Position numbers and translations under genes: made by a program | The notes under the pieces: generated by a model | Told to the model about the DNA's origin: nothing | The model's database searches: none | What the model saw: the letters and a program-made list of their open reading frames with translations, nothing else | Shown here: one piece after another, positions 2,627 through 18,567 of the stretch | Numbering within the stretch: position 1 is the first letter of the stretch | How the letters are laid out: each line of letters starts with the position of its first letter | IMG/VR virus record: IMGVR_UViG_3300037493_004352 | Span: 1 to 21,222 of that record | Source: a virus | Length of the DNA stretch: 21,222 bases | Direction: 5' to 3' (one strand)

Positions 2627-3460
2627 ATGAGCGTAGAACGGATAACTAAAAATGTATTAACTCATGAGCCATTTCCATTTACTAGCATTTTTAATGAGAT
2701 GTTACAGGGGATTACTAATACGGCTGCTTTAGGTGTTTATTGTTATTTGGCGAGCAAGCCTTCTGGTTGGATAATTTGCAAAAAAGAAATTCAAAAGCAT
2801 TTTAAATGCGGTCGAGATCACATCAATAGTTGTTTTAAATACCTTAAAGAAATAGGGGCAATTGAAATTCAGCCTGCCCGTGGGGAGAATGGCAAAATTA
2901 GTTGCTGGAACACATTGCTGAAGCGACATTTACCCACAATACGGGAAACCCACATTGTGGATAATCCACATTGTGGAAATACAGCACCTATAAAAGAAAG
3001 AATATTAGAAAAGAAAGAAGATAATAAAAACACAAACAAAAGCGCGCGTGAGAAAGTTGTTTCTGTCGACCCCGAATACCAATATCCTGATACCTTATTT
3101 CCTAAACCACAAACCGCATTAGAATTACTTAATGCAGAAAACAATTACAAACAAAAAGAAAAAAACGGCTTAGTAAAAGTTAATTATGAACAGAAAATAA
3201 ACGATGCAATATACGTTTGTAAGACAGACATGGAGTGCAGGCGCATACATATAGAAAAATTTCCCGCTAATGAAATTCTTTTTGAGCGTCTTTTGGAAGA
3301 ATGCCGATCGCATTATGTCTCTAAAGACCAGGTTTTTGATAAATATAAATTTATAAAATGGATTGAAAACGCCCGCATATTTAAGAAGAGCGAGAAAAAA
3401 TCATTTTATGATAATAACAGCACAAAATGGATAGAGAATATAAGCGAGGACATGTTTTAA
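2627..3460 (+). CDS. O-like replication initiator
   Basis: A 277-residue protein. The first 95 residues look like a winged helix-turn-helix of the kind found in phage initiators (ALGVYCYLASKPSGW, then KKEIQKHFKCGRDHINSCFKYLKEIG, a helix, turn and recognition helix). Residues 100-165 form a charged, low-complexity linker, and a separate C-terminal domain follows. This two-domain layout resembles lambda O, in which the linker-coding DNA holds the origin; here the linker carries three 16-bp iterons and an A-rich tract. The next gene is a lambda P-like helicase loader, and the TAATG junction couples the two. The Shine-Dalgarno (AAGGAC) before 2627 is good. The initiator role is inferred from domain layout, iterons and neighbour rather than from strong sequence identity. 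Confidence 0.7.
   Translation: MSVERITKNVLTHEPFPFTSIFNEMLQGITNTAALGVYCYLASKPSGWIICKKEIQKHFKCGRDHINSCFKYLKEIGAIEIQPARGENGKISCWNTLLKRHLPTIRETHIVDNPHCGNTAPIKERILEKKEDNKNTNKSAREKVVSVDPEYQYPDTLFPKPQTALELLNAENNYKQKEKNGLVKVNYEQKINDAIYVCKTDMECRRIHIEKFPANEILFERLLEECRSHYVSKDQVFDKYKFIKWIENARIFKKSEKKSFYDNNSTKWIENISEDMF
2934..2981 (+). repeat. Three 16-bp iterons with DnaA box: candidate origin
   Basis: Three direct repeats start at 2934, 2950 and 2966, exactly 16 bp apart. Repeats 2 and 3 share CCACATTGTGG, a near-palindrome (CCACA/TGTGG arms), and repeat 1 begins CCACAAT. TGTGGATAA at 2956-2964 is the exact complement of the DnaA box TTATCCACA. An A-rich, purine-biased tract follows (about 2992-3040). 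Iterons inside the linker of an initiator gene with an adjacent AT-rich strand bias is the arrangement of lambda ori. Confidence 0.6.
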
Positions 3461-3915
3461 TGAAAAGGATTAATGAAATTTTAGAGAGCTCTACTTTGAA
3501 GCCAGCATGTAAATATCAATACCAGGAGCCTTTTGTGAATACGCATGACATCCAGACAGCTAGAATTGTAAATAAATTATTCGCCACATTCCAAGGGATA
3601 TTTCCTGCTTTTAGACAAGCATGGCCAACGGAGGGTGAATTTGAGCGGGCTAAAAAAGAGTGGATAAAAGCGTTCCAACAAATTGGTTTAAGCGATGTCG
3701 ACCTTATTAAAAAAGGGGTAGAAAAATACAGGCTACTTGAATCGCCTTTTGTTCCATCTCCTGGGCAATTTATTGCGTTATGCAAAAAGATAGAAATAAA
3801 ACCACAATCAGACACACGAAATCTAGAAGATTTTGCATTGCCAGCACCTGAAAGAACACGTAGATTAGAGTACGGAAGAGAACAACTTCAAATGCTTAAG
3901 GATATGCTAAGGTAA
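3460..3915 (+). CDS. P: Replication protein P-like helicase loader
   Basis: A 151-residue protein matching the lambda replication protein P pattern. NKLFATFQGIFPAF is followed by a KKEWIKAF segment and the family hallmark PFVPSPGQF at residues 96-104 (lambda P has PFLPSPGQF). P proteins carry the host DnaB helicase to the O-bound origin. I start it at 3460, where TAATG couples it to the stop of the initiator gene; an in-frame ATG at 3427 lies inside that gene and lacks a Shine-Dalgarno. It is shorter than lambda P (233 residues), mainly at the C-terminus. The pairing with an O-like gene and iterons supports the call. Interaction with DnaB is established for lambda P and inferred here. Confidence 0.85.
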   Translation: MKRINEILESSTLKPACKYQYQEPFVNTHDIQTARIVNKLFATFQGIFPAFRQAWPTEGEFERAKKEWIKAFQQIGLSDVDLIKKGVEKYRLLESPFVPSPGQFIALCKKIEIKPQSDTRNLEDFALPAPERTRRLEYGREQLQMLKDMLR

Positions 3916-4199: not shown

Positions 4200-4406
4200 A
4201 TGGCAACAGGTACAGTGAAGTGGTTTAATGACCAAAAAGGATTTGGATTTATAACCGATGGCAAAAGTGATTTTTTTGCTCATTTCAGAGCCATTCAGAC
4301 CCCAGGCTTTAAAACTTTAAAAGAAGGCCAGAAAGTTAACTTTGATTCTAACTTACAATCTTCTAAAGGACCCGTAGCTGAAAATATTGTTATATTAGGC
4401 GATTAA
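4200..4406 (+). CDS. Cold-shock domain protein (CspA type)
   Basis: A 68-residue protein with the complete CspA fold signature: [13 protein letters not shown]1 KGFGFI at residues 13-18, RNP2-like DFFAHF at 24-29, then the [15 protein letters not shown] segment typical of bacterial Csps. These proteins bind single-stranded RNA or DNA and act as RNA chaperones or antiterminators. RNP2 has FFAHF where cellular Csps usually have VFVHF or VFVHY; its aromatic face is kept. It lies 24 nt after the preceding gene at the end of the early rightward operon. It was probably acquired from a bacterium; the benefit may be mRNA unfolding or antitermination during infection, which is inference. Confidence 0.93.
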
Positions 4407-7933: not shown

Positions 7934-8120
7934 AGACAGACCTGTAGAGAATGAAGCTTACTGTATGCCAAGCGCATATAAAAGCGTTGTTGCTGATATG
8001 AATGCTGGAAGCAAATATCCTTCTTGGAATTCTAGAGCTGACAATCAAACTAAATACCCTCTTGAAGGCATGAAAGGTGCTAAGGTTCGTAAGCAAGAGA
8101 TGGGTGGAAAAGGCTTGTAA
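7926..8120 (+). CDS. Small structural or accessory protein, unknown
   Basis: A 64-residue hydrophilic protein starting [20 protein letters not shown] and ending in a basic [15 protein letters not shown] tail. It looks unstructured at both ends. It overlaps the preceding tiny gene by 8 nt and is followed 7 nt later by the methyltransferase gene, so the three are one transcription unit. I did not recognise the family. Confidence 0.5.
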
Positions 8121-8127
8121 TATATAT

Positions 8128-9375
8128 ATGAATAGGAATTATAAAGACGTTTTGGTCGAGGATTTAAAGGAGTACAAGTTAAATTCTCGGCTGCATAGTG
8201 ATCAACAAATCAAGCAAGTAGTTAACTCTATAAACGAATTTGGCTTTACTAATCCTTTATTAATTGATGAAAACAACGAGATAATTGCAGGTCATTGTAG
8301 GCTTAAAGCTGCTATTAGTTTAGGCATGACAAGCGTTCCTTGCGTTGTTTTAAGTCATTTAACCTCATCACAAAAAAAAGCTTATGTTATTGCTGACAAT
8401 AAATTGGCTTTAAATGCTGATTGGGATATATCTATATTGCAAGCTGAGTTTGAATCATTAAAGTTTGATGATTTTAATCTTGAGCTGACAGGATTTAGTC
8501 TTGAGGAATTGATTGATATCTTTCCTCATGAAGAGCCAGAAGTGTTTTGTGATGAAGATGATTGTCCTGATGTACCTATTGAGCCCACCTCAAAACTTGG
8601 TGATGTTTGGGTGCTTGGTGAGCATCGGTTGATGTGTGGTGACAGTACATCGATTGATGTTATTGATAAGTTAATGCAAGGCAATAAAGCTGATATGGTA
8701 TTTACCGACCCTCCTTATAACACAGGGATGACCGCTGAATCACAAAAGGGTTCGGGAGGCCTGTGGAAAGGAACAAAAGGATCCAAGTCAGGTAGGCTAT
8801 CAAATATGTTTGACGATGCTTACACAGATGATGAATGGCAAGAATTTATGTCATTGTTTACTACTAATTATTATATGTTATTGAAGCCTGATTCCGTTGC
8901 TTATATATGCCTTGATTGGCGTAGAAATCATGAGTTAATACCTCATATTGATAAAGCAGGGTTTAAGCGATCTAACTTAATTGTTTGGGACAAGATGGTT
9001 CATGGTCTTGGGTCGGATTATAAATATTGCCATGAATTTATTAACGTATGTAAGAAGGGAAAGCCCACATTGCATACCAATCAAGGTGGCGAAAAAGAAT
9101 ATTATGACATTTGGCATATACAAAGAAAAATGGGAACGGATAAAGACCACGCAACAAAGAAGCCTATAGAGTTAGTTGAAAGAGCCATTAATCACTCAAC
9201 AATTTACGATGACCTGGTTGTTGATTTGTTTGGTGGATCTGGATCTACTTTAATAGCATGTGAAAAACTAAAGCGTAAATGCTTTATGATGGAGCTTGAC
9301 CCAAAATATTGTGATGTCATAATTAAACGATGGGAAAACTATACTAATAAAATAGCCACATTGGAGGGTGCATGA
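8128..9375 (+). CDS. ParB-domain/DNA methyltransferase fusion
   Basis: A 415-residue protein. Residues 7-100 form a ParB/Srx-like nuclease domain (ending of its core: EIIAGHCRLKAA, residues 51-62). A class-beta DNA methyltransferase domain follows: motif IV DPPY at 194-197 comes before the SAM-binding motif I DLFGGSGST at 366-374, the order of beta-class N6-adenine or N4-cytosine enzymes. DPPY favours adenine. This fusion is widespread in phages, where it modifies DNA, perhaps against host restriction. I start it at the ATG 8128, 7 nt after the previous stop; a GTG at 8077 lies inside that gene. The Shine-Dalgarno is weak. The 3' end overlaps the next gene (ATGA). No cognate restriction gene is nearby, so it is probably solitary. 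Confidence 0.92.
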   Translation: MNRNYKDVLVEDLKEYKLNSRLHSDQQIKQVVNSINEFGFTNPLLIDENNEIIAGHCRLKAAISLGMTSVPCVVLSHLTSSQKKAYVIADNKLALNADWDISILQAEFESLKFDDFNLELTGFSLEELIDIFPHEEPEVFCDEDDCPDVPIEPTSKLGDVWVLGEHRLMCGDSTSIDVIDKLMQGNKADMVFTDPPYNTGMTAESQKGSGGLWKGTKGSKSGRLSNMFDDAYTDDEWQEFMSLFTTNYYMLLKPDSVAYICLDWRRNHELIPHIDKAGFKRSNLIVWDKMVHGLGSDYKYCHEFINVCKKGKPTLHTNQGGEKEYYDIWHIQRKMGTDKDHATKKPIELVERAINHSTIYDDLVVDLFGGSGSTLIACEKLKRKCFMMELDPKYCDVIIKRWENYTNKIATLEGA

Positions 9376-10495: not shown

Positions 10496-10725
10496 AAGAT
10501 AAGCTAGGCAGACAAATAATTAAAACAGGCCCTGAAGAAAACTATACTGCACCAACACAAAAAGAAGCCGAATTTAATCTACGTCAACACTTGCTAATGA
10601 TGCTAGAAGCTATGCAATACAAAGGGCCTACAAGATTTATGCCTAATAGCACATTGCGTGATTTAGTAGAGCACGAGAAGATACAGTTCTTACGTAAATT
10701 ACAGGCTAATGATGCTGACAAATGA
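10492..10725 (+). CDS. Small protein preceding TerL, unknown
   Basis: A 77-residue protein with a GTG start (AAGGTG upstream; overlap GTGA with the prior stop). It begins MKDKLGRQIIKTGPEENY and is helical toward the end (LRDLVEHEKIQFLRKLQAND). It overlaps the TerL start by 17 nt. No family was recognised; the location suggests a packaging accessory. Confidence 0.5.
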   Translation: MKDKLGRQIIKTGPEENYTAPTQKEAEFNLRQHLLMMLEAMQYKGPTRFMPNSTLRDLVEHEKIQFLRKLQANDADK

Positions 10726-13402
10726 TGGGCAACGAGCACTCCTAGAGTCAAGCCTAATGCGCCTAAAAGAGTTCCAATACTTCGCTGAAACATTCTTTAA
10801 GATTCGTACTAAGAACGGTTCTGTAATCCCTTTTGAGCTTAACAGAGCGCAGCTATATATCCATGACAGGCTAGAAGCTCAGCTAAAAGAAACTGGCAAG
10901 GTTCGGGCAATATGTCTAAAAGGAAGGCAGCAAGGCGTGTCTACTTTGATACAAGCGCGCTACTTTCATAAGACTGTTACTAATCGGGGAATGAAGACAT
11001 TTATTCTTACGCACGAAACAGCGGCAACTAAAAACTTATTTGATATGACGCGCAGATACTATGAGTATTTGCCCGCAGGCTTAATTCCTAAAGCTAATCG
11101 TGACAGCCAGAAAGAACTTAAGTTTGAATCCATTGACTCTGGATACGCTATTGGAACTGCGGGCGCAAAAGGCACTGGCCGCAGTCAAACAGTACAGTTG
11201 TTGCATGGATGTCTTGGGGCTGGAACGCGAATCTACGATCCAACAACGGGCGGATTGAAATTAATAGAGGACTTTATTGTTGGCGATCGAGTTCAAACTC
11301 ATACTGGTGCAATAGCAAATATATCTTATATATCATCCCAAAAAAAAGAATGCCTTTCAGTTGTTTTTAGGGGTTTAACAGCGTTTCCTTTAATCGCCAC
11401 CCCTGAACATAGGTTTTGGACTAAGCAGGGCTGGAAAGAGCTAAGGCATTTAAATATTGGTGACTCTATTGGTTATCCGGTGGGAACCATTCATAATGTT
11501 TTAACAACTGAATTGTTACCAAAAGCCACCGTTCGTGCTCATGGAGGCGGCAGGCAATTTTTATGCCCAGATGAAATAAATTGTAATTATGAATTTGGAA
11601 GGCTGCTTGGCCTATATCTTGCTGACGGCCATATTGCGCTTCAATATAAATCCCCGCATTACCCGTCAAGATTGGAGTTTGCGGTTCATAGAAAAGAAGT
11701 AAATAGAACGATCGAATGGCTGCTTCCTTTTAGCAGCTATTATTCAAGCATGAAAGTTAATCATCGAGAAGACAGCCTTACCTCTATTATTACAATATAT
11801 GGAAATAGATTTATTAGGCTTATAAATCGCATGTGCGGTCGAACTAAAGAAAAAAAATTCCCATTTGATTGGAGCTTGAAAGGCCGTGAGTTTTGCCTTG
11901 GTTTATTGCATGGTTATTTGGCCGGTGATGGCAGTTCATACGCAGAAGATAGAAGGATTCGCGCAACATCTATTTGCTCGTCGCTAACAATTACTTTAAG
12001 AGACATTTGTGCTTCATTAGGATTTGGGTGGGCCGGTATAGAACACAAAAAATCAGCAGTCAGGCATGGAAGAAATGAAAAAGAAGCTTACATTTTCAGT
12101 CTATGCGGAGAAGGTGTAAATGATATTGCGCGCTCATTAGGGAAGCCTGCACCACCTATATTACGAATCAAAACAAAATCAACCAAGAACAACGCAGCCA
12201 ATACTACTGAAATAAGCGAAGGATATGCCTGGGTTAGAATTAAAGAAATGGAAGACGTTGGAGAAAAGGTTGTTTATGACTTTGAAGTAAACCATGACGA
12301 TCATTCATATTGCACGATTCATGGCGCAACACATAACAGCGAATGCGCCTTTTGGCCCAACGCTGCTGAACATGCCCAAGGTTTAATGCAGGCAGTAGGC
12401 GACCAAGACGGCACCGAAATCATATTAGAGTCCACGGCCAATGGCATTGGCAATTATTTTCATTCTGTATGGGTTGCGGCTGAGCAAGGCAAATCTGATT
12501 TTCAAGCTATTTTTGTTCCTTGGTACTGGCAGCCAGAGTATAGAGCGTTTCACAATCAATCGCATGATGAAATATCGCTAACCGAAGAAGAGCAGCGATT
12601 GATGGATGCTTATGGCTCCGATGGCATGACGCGTGAACATATTTACTGGCGGCGATTTAAGATAGGTCAGTTTAGCAATGATCATGACGTTGGCGTTAGA
12701 TTGTTCCAGCAGGAATATCCGTGTTGCGCTAGTGAGTCGTTCCTCAACCCAATTGACGATACATTTATACCATCAGTCCATGTGTCTAAAGCACGCAAAG
12801 TTAAAATTGATATAGCAAGAACCACTCCGTTATACATAGGTGTTGACCCAGCCATTGGTGACAACGATAGATGCGCTATCATTAAACGCAAAGGGCGAGT
12901 AGCATATGACCTAGAGTTCTTACGTAATCACAATACTATGGAGCTTGCAGGTAGGTTAAAGACAATGATTGATAAAGAGAAGCCGGCTAAAGTGTTTATA
13001 GACTGCATTGGAATTGGTGCTGGAGTTGTTGATAGACTACAGGAGATGGGCTATGAATGTGTCGTGGGTATTAATGTTGCTAGGACTGCTAACAATAAAG
13101 AGCGCTTTGGAAATCTTCGCGCTGAGCTATGGTCCGAAATGCGCGACTGGCTTATGGGAGAAATCCCTGTCCAAATACCTGATAGCGATGAACTTCATAC
13201 AGATTTGTGTGGTTTGGGTTATAAGCATCGTTCTAATGGGCAATTATTAATAGAGTCTAAGGATGATTTAAGAAAGCGTGGGATGCCATCGCCAGATGCT
13301 GCAGATGCACTTTCGATGACCTTTGCATTCGGTATGTATGCAGGAGAATCTAACTTTGCACCTAATTTTATGCCCGATCAACACCGAGGGATGTTTACAT
13401 AA
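10709..13402 (+). CDS. terL: Large terminase subunit with intein
   Basis: An 897-codon gene; removal of the 376-residue intein leaves a 521-residue TerL, a normal size. The ATPase domain shows a Walker A-like KGRQQGVST (residues 71-79) and, after splicing, LLHG joined to SECAFWPNA, the Walker B region with its catalytic Glu. The nuclease domain (RNase H fold) has D713 in YIGVDPAIGD, D765 in VFIDCIG and D863/D866 in PDAADAL, the metal-binding acids of phage headful nucleases. TerL pumps DNA through the portal and cuts it. The start at 10709 overlaps the previous gene by 17 nt; ATGATG leaves one alternative start. Without splicing the ATPase core would be broken, so splicing should be essential for packaging. 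Confidence 0.95.
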   Translation: MMLTNDGQRALLESSLMRLKEFQYFAETFFKIRTKNGSVIPFELNRAQLYIHDRLEAQLKETGKVRAICLKGRQQGVSTLIQARYFHKTVTNRGMKTFILTHETAATKNLFDMTRRYYEYLPAGLIPKANRDSQKELKFESIDSGYAIGTAGAKGTGRSQTVQLLHGCLGAGTRIYDPTTGGLKLIEDFIVGDRVQTHTGAIANISYISSQKKECLSVVFRGLTAFPLIATPEHRFWTKQGWKELRHLNIGDSIGYPVGTIHNVLTTELLPKATVRAHGGGRQFLCPDEINCNYEFGRLLGLYLADGHIALQYKSPHYPSRLEFAVHRKEVNRTIEWLLPFSSYYSSMKVNHREDSLTSIITIYGNRFIRLINRMCGRTKEKKFPFDWSLKGREFCLGLLHGYLAGDGSSYAEDRRIRATSICSSLTITLRDICASLGFGWAGIEHKKSAVRHGRNEKEAYIFSLCGEGVNDIARSLGKPAPPILRIKTKSTKNNAANTTEISEGYAWVRIKEMEDVGEKVVYDFEVNHDDHSYCTIHGATHNSECAFWPNAAEHAQGLMQAVGDQDGTEIILESTANGIGNYFHSVWVAAEQGKSDFQAIFVPWYWQPEYRAFHNQSHDEISLTEEEQRLMDAYGSDGMTREHIYWRRFKIGQFSNDHDVGVRLFQQEYPCCASESFLNPIDDTFIPSVHVSKARKVKIDIARTTPLYIGVDPAIGDNDRCAIIKRKGRVAYDLEFLRNHNTMELAGRLKTMIDKEKPAKVFIDCIGIGAGVVDRLQEMGYECVVGINVARTANNKERFGNLRAELWSEMRDWLMGEIPVQIPDSDELHTDLCGLGYKHRSNGQLLIESKDDLRKRGMPSPDAADALSMTFAFGMYAGESNFAPNFMPDQHRGMFT
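11210..12337 (+). mobile_element. LAGLIDADG homing-endonuclease intein in TerL
   Basis: An in-frame insert of 376 residues starting with Cys (block A: CLGAGTRIYDPTTGG) and ending ATHN before the extein Ser. Block B is ATPEHRFW with the conserved T-x-x-H, and block F is VYDFEVNHDDHSY. The splicing residues Cys1, the TPEH His, the C-terminal His-Asn and Ser+1 are all present, so it should be active. The middle holds two LAGLIDADG motifs, LLGLYLADGH (Asp139 of the intein) and LLHGYLAGDGSS (Asp240), typical of a homing endonuclease. It interrupts the Walker B motif, a favoured conserved insertion site. Both catalytic Asp residues are intact, so homing may still work. Confidence 0.93.
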
Positions 13403-15561: not shown

Positions 15562-16443
15562 ATGAGCCTGACAAATGTAGATGACAAATTATTAAATATA
15601 CCTTCACCCGAAAAGGTGCAATTAGACACACCGGAAACAAGAAGCTTTGCACCTGAGCCTGAACCTGTTCCAGAAGTTGCTGAGTCAACTACTTCTGAAA
15701 GGGAAGCGGTCGAAGCCGAACCAGTTTATGCAGACATTAGCCCTGAGCCAGCATCTGAAGACACCAATGTAGACGAATATGGCACAGAAATAGCAAAGCA
15801 AGAAAAGGTTTATACTCAAGCCGAAGTGGACGCACGTATAAATGAAGCCATTCGTAAACGACTAAAAGAGCGGGCAGAGACACCAGCTGAGCCGCAATAT
15901 CAACCACAATACCAACCACAAGCTGAAGTACAACCAGCGGCCAGTGATGATTGGGAAGTGCAATTAGAAAGTTTTATTGAAACCGCAATATCTAAGCGTG
16001 AACAAAAAGCTCAAGCTGAACAATGGCAAAGACAAGAGCAAGAAGCGCAAGCTAATTTTGAGATACGATTTAATCAAGGCATGTCGAAGTACCAGGACTT
16101 TGAGCAAGTTGTAATGGGCAAACCTCTTACACCGCAGATGGTTATAGCTACTCGCGGCATGAGTGACCCTGCTGCATTTATCTATGCCGCTGCTAAGACT
16201 CAAGCTCCAGAGCTAGATAGAATATCTAAGATTGGTGACCCGTATGCTCAGGCTATTGAACTAGGTAGACTTGAAGAGCGCATGAGGAAGGCCAGAAGCA
16301 CAGTTAGCAAAGCTCCTCGTCCTATTGAGGCTCCTAAGGGTGACGTTAGCGAGAAGGTGCAGAGGACTTGGTCTATAGATGAGAAGTTACGCCATGCTGA
16401 GAGTGAGTCTAAGAAAGAAAGAATGCGTGGGAAGACAATGTAA
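15562..16443 (+). CDS. Scaffolding protein (P22 gp8-like)
   Basis: A 293-residue, highly charged, low-complexity protein (P22 gp8 has 303). The first 120 residues are Pro/Glu-rich and probably disordered, with a short QPQY repeat around residues 112-121. Residues 130-190 are a Gln-rich helix. The C-terminus is basic and helical (RTWSIDEKLRHAESESKKER), as in P22 scaffold, where the C-terminal helix-turn-helix binds coat. Scaffold directs procapsid assembly and then exits. It lies 3 nt after the portal stop and two genes before coat, in the canonical place, with an HNH gene inserted between. The call depends on position and composition because scaffold sequences diverge quickly. Confidence 0.8.
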   Translation: MSLTNVDDKLLNIPSPEKVQLDTPETRSFAPEPEPVPEVAESTTSEREAVEAEPVYADISPEPASEDTNVDEYGTEIAKQEKVYTQAEVDARINEAIRKRLKERAETPAEPQYQPQYQPQAEVQPAASDDWEVQLESFIETAISKREQKAQAEQWQRQEQEAQANFEIRFNQGMSKYQDFEQVVMGKPLTPQMVIATRGMSDPAAFIYAAAKTQAPELDRISKIGDPYAQAIELGRLEERMRKARSTVSKAPRPIEAPKGDVSEKVQRTWSIDEKLRHAESESKKERMRGKTM

Positions 16444-16512: not shown

Positions 16513-17079
16513 TCATGATTGGTGCTCTATTAAATATGCAATTAATTGCTGTAATCGCTCTATTGAGTCCTCAGCATATCCAAGGCATGAATTGCATGCG
16601 CCACAAAGTAATTTTCGTACTTTCCCTGTGGCATGGTTATGGTCAACAGCGAGCTTTTTAATCGTTTTACTATTATTTGATTTTTGCGTGCTCGGCTTTT
16701 TGCAAATGTAACAAAGACCTCCTTGGGCATCCCACATCTTTTGATAGCACTCCATACTATTCATGCCTTTATAGTTGCGTCTAATATTTCCGTCTCTAGC
16801 GCATTTTTTGCAATGATATTGAACTCCATCGCCACCTTTTTTCTTAAAGTCTTTTCTTATATATACATCATCAATTGTTAACAGCCCATGATTTTTTGTG
16901 CATTTATGGATGATGCCTACAGGCCATTTTTCGTGAATATAATAACTTGTTTGACCCTCATGAGATGGCAAGTCATACGATCCATATTTAGTCATGCGCC
17001 ATTTATGCGTGCCACAAACAGTACCCTTGTATGTAATAATGTTTTTGCAATTAGAAATACTACATTTATCGCCTTTCAT
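16513..17079 (-). CDS. Endonuclease VII-type HNH endonuclease
   Basis: A 188-residue protein. The C-terminal part holds the recombination endonuclease VII signature LAVDHNHATGKVRKLLCGACN: D146-H147-N148-H149, the metal ligand N163 and a zinc site formed by C123/C126 and C159/C162. The N-terminal half has further Cys pairs (C6/C11, C22, C60, C90/C93), possibly a second zinc-binding DNA-reading domain. I start it at the ATG 17079 because AGGAGG lies 4-5 nt upstream; the longer frame upstream contains the proposed promoter. It runs against the head genes between scaffold and coat, with its own promoter and terminator. This suggests a homing-type mobile nuclease rather than a needed resolvase, although Holliday-junction cleavage is the other possibility. 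Confidence 0.88.
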   Translation of the reverse strand: MKGDKCSISNCKNIITYKGTVCGTHKWRMTKYGSYDLPSHEGQTSYYIHEKWPVGIIHKCTKNHGLLTIDDVYIRKDFKKKGGDGVQYHCKKCARDGNIRRNYKGMNSMECYQKMWDAQGGLCYICKKPSTQKSNNSKTIKKLAVDHNHATGKVRKLLCGACNSCLGYAEDSIERLQQLIAYLIEHQS

Positions 17080-17172
17080 TTCGCCTCCTATAGCGTTACT
17101 CCTTGGATTAGACAAATCAGGAGGGCAAGGAAACCCCCCGTTCGTGCTGCAGGCACTAGATTTGATTTTCAT

Positions 17173-17181
17173 ATTATAGCA
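17173..17181 (-). promoter_or_regulatory. Extended -10 promoter of the HNH gene
   Basis: On the minus strand this reads TGCTATAAT, a perfect extended -10 element. Transcription would begin near 17166 and give an 87-nt leader with two small hairpins (GTGC/GCAC and GGGGGG/CCCTCC) before the AGGAGG Shine-Dalgarno at 17084-17089. Confidence 0.5.
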
Positions 17182-17301
17182 TAATTGTAGCAACAGATGT
17201 GTAGCACCATTACTCCATCAGTTACAAGTGGCAAGTATCGTCTTCTGCCGGACAAAAAAGGCGCTCATAGGAGCAATAATTTTGTTTAACAGGAGATCAA
17301 A

Positions 17302-18567
17302 ATGGCGAATTCGTTTGCTACCACAAGCTATATACTTGACGAAGTTTTTATACGGTACATTAATTATCTCGGGTTTGCCAAAGTGGCCAACCGTAACTTA
17401 GAAGCAGATTTCAAAAACTTAAAATACGCAACTGGTCAAACCATTAACTACCGTTTGGAAGAAAGATTCCTAGGTGGATATGGGGCTACTGCAACTGACG
17501 AAGCTGTGGTGCAAGTTGTTCGTCCATTAACCATTGATACTCAGTTCAACTCTTTAGTATCTTTCAATGGCATGGAATTAACATTCGATCGCGCTCGTGA
17601 CCAACCATATCTTGACATGATGTTAAAGCCTCGTGCTAAACGTCTTGCAAATAACGTTGAGTCATTTATTTGTGCGCAAAATTTCCAACCAGCTGTTTAT
17701 CAAACTACTGGTACACCAGGCGTGCCAATTGACTTCCAAACTGTACTTAATACTGATGCTTACATGACAGAATTAGGTATACCAGAAGATGGCAACCGTT
17801 ATTTTGCTAATAGTCCTGCTGTTTCTGCAGCTCTATCTAACGACCTATATACAGTGTTCAACATGACTGTAAATCGTGGCGCGTTGATGGATGGATTCAT
17901 TGGTCACTTAGCAGGCTTTGACTTCTTCAAGACCAACTTCCTTGTTCGTCAAATTGCTGGTGTTGGTCAAGCAGGTGGTTCACCTCCTACTGGATTTAAA
18001 TTAGCTGGTACTATTACCAATGGTCCAATTAGCTCAGGAAGTACTTTTGTATTGACTGGTTTAGTTGCTAGCCAAGCATCTCCATTTTTTCCTGGTGATA
18101 AGCTTCAGTTTGCAGCTTCTGCTGGTGTATACATGGTTAATCCATTAGCATCTGCATCACAAACTGGTGGATATATTCCTTTATCTACTGCAGCGCAATT
18201 TGTTGTTGTGTCTTCTACTGCTTCTGATGGTTCAGGCAATGCTACCGTTACAGTTAGCCCTGCTGTCGTTGTTAGTGGAGCTCGCCAAAACATTAGCGGT
18301 GCAATTCCAAATGGTGCTCAATTGTTATTAGCACAAAGTCATAACGAGTCACTTGCGTTCCACAATCAATCTATTGTGTTCGCGGCTCCTCCAATTACAG
18401 AGTTAAAGGGTGGTGTTGAAGCTGTTACCACTTATTCTGATCTGTATAAGATGGCAATGACCTATACTCTTGGTGCTGATATTCGTAACTATGTTCAGTT
18501 AGATAGACTGGATATTATTGCGGGTGTTTCAATCAACCCAGAGTTCTCGGTTTGCGTAATGAGCTAA
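17302..18567 (+). CDS. Major coat protein (P22 gp5-like)
   Basis: A 421-residue protein, close to P22 gp5 (430). Family-like segments include RPRAKRLANNVE-type helix (here PRAKRLANNVESF, like ARKLANNVE in gp5), GIPEDGNRYFANSP, and GHLAGFDFFKTNFLV before a Gly/Ser/Ala-rich insertion (about residues 220-345) that corresponds to the gp5 I-domain. The HK97-type fold is expected from the family. The Shine-Dalgarno CAGGAG is well placed before the ATG. Codon use shows many GCT, GTT and CGT codons, as expected for a very highly expressed product. It lies after scaffold and the HNH insert, and before the gp4- and gp10-like genes. The I-domain region is the least certain in detail. Confidence 0.92.
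   Translation: MANSFATTSYILDEVFIRYINYLGFAKVANRNLEADFKNLKYATGQTINYRLEERFLGGYGATATDEAVVQVVRPLTIDTQFNSLVSFNGMELTFDRARDQPYLDMMLKPRAKRLANNVESFICAQNFQPAVYQTTGTPGVPIDFQTVLNTDAYMTELGIPEDGNRYFANSPAVSAALSNDLYTVFNMTVNRGALMDGFIGHLAGFDFFKTNFLVRQIAGVGQAGGSPPTGFKLAGTITNGPISSGSTFVLTGLVASQASPFFPGDKLQFAASAGVYMVNPLASASQTGGYIPLSTAAQFVVVSSTASDGSGNATVTVSPAVVVSGARQNISGAIPNGAQLLLAQSHNESLAFHNQSIVFAAPPITELKGGVEAVTTYSDLYKMAMTYTLGADIRNYVQLDRLDIIAGVSINPEFSVCVMS

Follow-up and report, generated by a model that had tools for sequence, protein, structure and literature searches.

A probable phage replication origin within the linker codons of its own initiator gene

Positions 2934 to about 3041 of the virus record IMGVR_UViG_3300037493_004352 are very probably the replication origin of this phage, lying within the linker codons of its own initiator gene. 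The window analyzed here is the whole record (positions 1 to 21,222; 21,222 bases), in which profile searches identified a P22-like portal and coat, a P22-Cro-like regulator, and a replication gene pair. A preliminary description of this DNA had called the region a lambda-ori-like origin. The layout, with the origin inside the initiator gene as in lambda, is well supported because relatives conserve the repeats at the DNA level, whereas the implied membership of the initiator in the lambda O family did not stand.

Repeat units and the encoded initiator

The features of the region are as follows.

2627 to 3460, plus strand: initiator gene (277 aa), with a winged helix-turn-helix (wHTH) N-terminal domain, a disordered linker, and a helical C-terminus (profile matches and AlphaFold)
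2648 to 2926, plus strand: codons of the folded DNA-binding domain, residues 8-100, most of which has a pLDDT of about 95
2934 to 2944, no strand assigned: iteron 1, CCACAATACGG (16-bp unit to 2949; leave-one-out score 18.2)
2950 to 2960, no strand assigned: iteron 2, CCACATTGTGG (16-bp unit to 2965; leave-one-out score 17.8)
2966 to 2976, no strand assigned: iteron 3, CCACATTGTGG (16-bp unit to 2981; leave-one-out score 17.2)
2956 to 2964, minus strand: exact DnaA box TTATCCACA, overlapping the right half of iteron 2 (top-strand complement TGTGGATAA)
2982 to 3041, plus strand: A-rich tract, proposed unwinding element (A = 0.65; codon bias in family tracts)
2989 to 3022, plus strand: two 17-bp A-rich repeats, TATAAAAGAAAGAATAT and TAGAAAAGAAAGAAGAT, in different reading frames
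3460 to 3915, plus strand: lambda P-like helicase loader (PF06992, 6.4e-21; phrog_109, 1.3e-25)

The three units (starts 2934, 2950, and 2966) have a period of exactly 16 and each contains an 11-bp near-palindrome; in full they read CCACAATACGG GAAAC, CCACATTGTGG ATAAT, and CCACATTGTGG AAATA, respectively. This repeat structure, with two units alike, had been noticed beforehand and was borne out: the lag-16 periodicity score was reached in none of 2000 synonymous-codon shuffles that kept the protein. Twin perfect palindromes alone are weaker evidence, as they arose in 226 of the 2000. The 11-mer CCACATTGTGG is translated as (T)HIV(D) in the second unit and as (N)PHCG in the third, and this reading of identical DNA in two frames means that the constraint acts on DNA. 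The DnaA box and the A-rich tract named in the preliminary description were also found. The box is the sole exact one of the 21-kb record and, because it overlaps iteron 2, is partly forced by the iteron. The 60-nt tract after the units is 65% A, which places its A content in the top 0.5% of gene windows, and TRF reported a 17-bp tandem repeat in it at 2990-3029. GC skew within the window had no switch at the iteron region; the skew follows gene direction here and is uninformative.

The iterons occupy nt 308-350 of the initiator gene. AlphaFold predicted a disordered linker at residues about 103-163, and therefore the origin-like DNA encodes the linker, as had been proposed; the helical C-terminus was modeled with less confidence. 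The best PDB fold match of the N-domain was 5wtn, the N-domain of Geobacillus primosomal DnaB. Profile matches of the initiator were to phrog_270 (3e-8), phrog_428, phrog_186, and weakly HTH_36, for which the single-sequence score was 14.7, below the Pfam cutoff of 25. A profile comparison of the N-domain with Rep of Staphylococcus phage B122 gave 97.7% over 70 residues. Judged by these sequence comparisons, the N-terminal domain matches the HTH_36/Staphylococcus-phage Rep type. The initiator had no match to PF04492 (Phage_rep_O) at E 0.1, whereas lambda O matches it at 5.7e-36, and the hhalign probability against the lambda O profile was 0.1; by these comparisons it does not belong to the lambda O family. 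PDB sequence searches with lambda O or with the family profile returned no match. The earlier label "O-like" thus applies to function only.

The expected lambda P-like gene does follow, its start at 3460 overlapping the initiator stop as TAATG. A P-like gene also lies 3' of the initiator in relatives L092, L100, L101, L102, and L103. By inspection, no P-like neighbor was recognized in L095, L098, L099, and L108, of which only the L099 neighbor was scanned.

Several other features of the window were recorded. A strong hairpin (2430-2465; CGGCTTAGGA...TCCTAAGCCG) lies in the non-coding stretch 5' of the initiator gene without a T-run after it; it had no Rfam match, nor did anything else in the window. 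Shortly 3' of the replication genes, 4200-4406 encodes a cold-shock domain protein (PF00313, 5e-23). One ORF at 8077-9375 encodes a fusion of a ParB-like N-terminal domain with an N6/N4 DNA methyltransferase. The large terminase ORF (10709-13402) carries a Hint/LAGLIDADG-like insertion with weak profile matches (Hint_2, 0.006; LAGLIDADG_3, 0.002), which begins CLGAGT, ends VHN-like before S, and judging by its position is probably an intein. An Endonuclease VII-type gene on the minus strand (16513-17193), flanked by the ORF at 15562-16443 and by the coat gene, is possibly a homing endonuclease.

Conservation among relatives and competing explanations

Direct searches of viral and genome contigs with the initiator or P returned no close relatives, and a search for the exact twin-iteron pattern had no match. 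Relatives were reached through the terminase, whose own relatives gave access to two homologues of the initiator (L035 and L024); the resulting three-sequence initiator alignment then found 21 viral loci. The same alignment found no relatives in genome contigs. C-termini differ widely among the relatives.

The family motif is CC[AG][CG]A[AT]T[ACG][CT]GG followed by AAAAN. A 16-bp model trained on the other loci, with the window left out, ranked the window's three units first in the gene, the next-best site reaching 9.0 bits against 18.2, 17.8, and 17.2. Whole-locus scans showed that high-scoring sites concentrate in the linker. A site scoring 14.5 at 17777 (coat gene, minus strand) looks like an isolated palindrome and was set aside. 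Three loci found later and outside the training set (L125, L126, and L131) have 16-bp pairs in the same place. Neighboring units in 16 genes give 43 spacings, of which 26 measure exactly 16 and a further four 17; the relatives share common ancestry and such counts are not independent, although the spacing and frame evidence is less affected. Gaps between unit pairs vary among relatives, units occur in all three codon phases across the family, and in one relative (L094) only one unit reaches the score. The motif model was needed because paired units are not the same in sequence, so that a generic score for two-copy repeats fell short of significance in some relatives. Conservation of the repeats in relatives, proposed at the outset as a check, was thus found, with the 16-bp spacing kept at the DNA level where the encoded protein differs.

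The A-rich tracts of the relatives have their own repeats. From shuffled tracts, 0.73 occurrences of the sequence ATAAAAGA would be expected; the tracts have 18, often as two copies 17 bp apart at a near-fixed distance from the last unit. The second copy mostly lies in a single frame (Ile-Lys), and peptide constraint may contribute there; in L035 and L102 two identical copies sit in different frames. Synonymous choice in the family tracts is strongly A-biased, with ATA used for 35 of 41 Ile codons versus 90 of 238 elsewhere (P 1e-8). The tracts are also nearer than shuffles to the consensus of the E. coli oriC 13-mer.

Exact DnaA boxes were present in five of 22 linkers, whereas the number of CCACA/TGTGG half-sites would predict 0.31 (P 2e-5). 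Among the first 19 loci (192 kb), five of the six exact boxes fell within linkers, and the later loci L126 and L131 have one each outside the linker. Most relatives have no exact box in the linker, and therefore DnaA use, if real, is limited to a subset.

The foremost alternative to an origin is an operator with no origin function, which the initiator would bind to control its own gene, at the level of transcription or translation, or the downstream P. A winged-helix domain and palindromic sites would suit a regulator, and binding sites by themselves do not prove an origin. We nevertheless consider an operator improbable: the units lie 300 nt inside the gene, away from its start, the relatives have the A-rich element with its own repeats at a near-fixed distance after the units, DnaA boxes are enriched in linkers, and the layout equals that of lambda ori (PMC7466680).

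The repeats could also work as mRNA hairpins in attenuation or a translational pause, and the RNA fold z-score is indeed -4.1 in the window and negative in most relatives. Any inverted repeat yields such scores, however; lambda ori, which binds the O protein, has a z-score of -7.1. Single units have a one-base loop and are unable to fold alone. Folding is ordinary in L092, L094, L100, and L102 (z -0.9 to +0.8), and L092, L100, and L102 still keep the 16-bp pairs, leaving this explanation with little probability.

The explanation that the repeats simply follow from a repetitive or low-complexity linker peptide fares slightly worse. This peptide is indeed of low complexity and conserved in part (TENPxxGK), but the period of 16 is not a multiple of 3, no synonymous shuffle reproduced the periodicity, and codon choice in the tract is biased. 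The translation of identical units in different frames already contradicts a peptide origin, and peptide repetition cannot account for the repeats.

It is equally doubtful that the origin is mainly DnaA-driven, with the CCACA units as degenerate DnaA boxes and no initiator binding. The exact box at 2956-2964 and the near matches TTACCCACA (2930) and TAATCCACA (2962) speak for this reading, but most relatives keep 16-bp pairs without an exact box, and the half-sites of several are unlike DnaA boxes (CCGTATTCTGG, CCACCTTGTGG).

Comparison with lambda and with HTH_36-type and plasmid initiators

Lambdoid origins combine iterons with an AT-rich region and lie midway within O, as described in a paper that covers Stx-phage origins (PMC7466680); according to work cited there, two iterons and the AT-rich tract are enough for unwinding. 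The origin-like region resembles lambda ori in that linker codons mid-way in the initiator gene carry iterons and an A/T-rich tract, and a P-type loader gene with an overlapping start comes next. Both systems have palindromic CC...GG units with A-rich 5-mers between them. The annotated lambda iterons are 18 bp long (O nt 349-433) and spaced 20, 24, and 23, whereas the window has 11-bp units at a 16-bp pitch. The iterons are unrelated in sequence to those of lambda, as first described, although they share the style of CC...GG inverted repeats with A-rich 5-mers between them. The window differs further in its initiator outside Phage_rep_O, an exact DnaA box within the iterons, and 17-bp repeats in the A-rich tract. 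The lambda-type arrangement was already known, and the window carries a further example of it with another initiator family.

By inspection, CC...GG units recur every 15-16 bp at the corresponding linker position in the initiators of B122 and of plasmids from A. kunkeei and B. carboniphilus. In these HTH_36-type initiators of Staphylococcus phages and related Firmicutes phages or plasmids, an A/T-rich stretch follows the linker units as it does in the window, although the half-site sequences differ; the annotated downstream gene of B122 is DnaC-like rather than P-like. The pattern CC-N6/7-GG at a 15-16 bp pitch occurs in the window as two overlapping pairs (0 of 500 shuffles). The strict pattern was found in 14 of 31 initiators against 3.2 expected, these having been picked as relatives of the window protein or P or for comparison and not as a survey, and 24 of the 25 matches fell at gene nt 296-402. 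The A. kunkeei initiator alone was not significant against its own shuffles, and the strict pattern found no such units in PAJU2 O, among the nearest P relatives. A different initiator beside a DnaB-like helicase ORF (L017:1594-1667) carries three larger repeats in its linker (GGGGTGTCACCCACGACACC; spacing 25 and 23) and is apparently another origin with the same layout.

An origin inside the initiator gene is also known from RepA_N plasmids. In pSK41 the origin is central in rep, the N-domain binds it, and the linker codons are dispensable as protein, while in pPR9 Rep the RepA_N domain and the origin region have jointly given way to a pfam13730 (HTH_36) N-domain (PMC5703833). According to the same review, DnaA boxes have not been detected on plasmids of staphylococci. 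RepA_N is a plasmid system and, unlike the window initiator, has a C-terminal DnaG primase interaction domain.

Proposed mechanism and implications

For the origin in the window, we infer a sequence of steps in which N-terminal winged-helix dimers of the initiator would bind the 11-bp CC...GG units at their 16-bp pitch and assemble a nucleoprotein complex on them. The complex would melt the adjoining A-rich tract with its 17-bp repeats, and the initiator C-terminus and the P-like loader would deliver the host DnaB helicase to the opened strand. Host DnaA may help through the box at 2956-2964.

More broadly, we see roughly even chances that phages and plasmids of Gram-negative and Gram-positive hosts share a common origin code. 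A winged-helix domain would move together with its own CC-N6/7-GG units at a 15-16 bp pitch, with an A-rich element for melting at a near-fixed distance, and in some cases with a DnaA box, all as one domain-linker cassette, whose C-termini and helicase loaders would be swapped freely. The exact DnaA boxes in a subset of relatives point to a possible direct use of host DnaA by some origins of the lambda layout. The combination of 16-bp CC...GG pairs and an A-rich element at a near-fixed distance in linker codons offers a rule for predicting origins in phages known only from metagenomes, and the diverged initiator/site pairs are a natural set for studying DNA recognition by winged-helix initiators.
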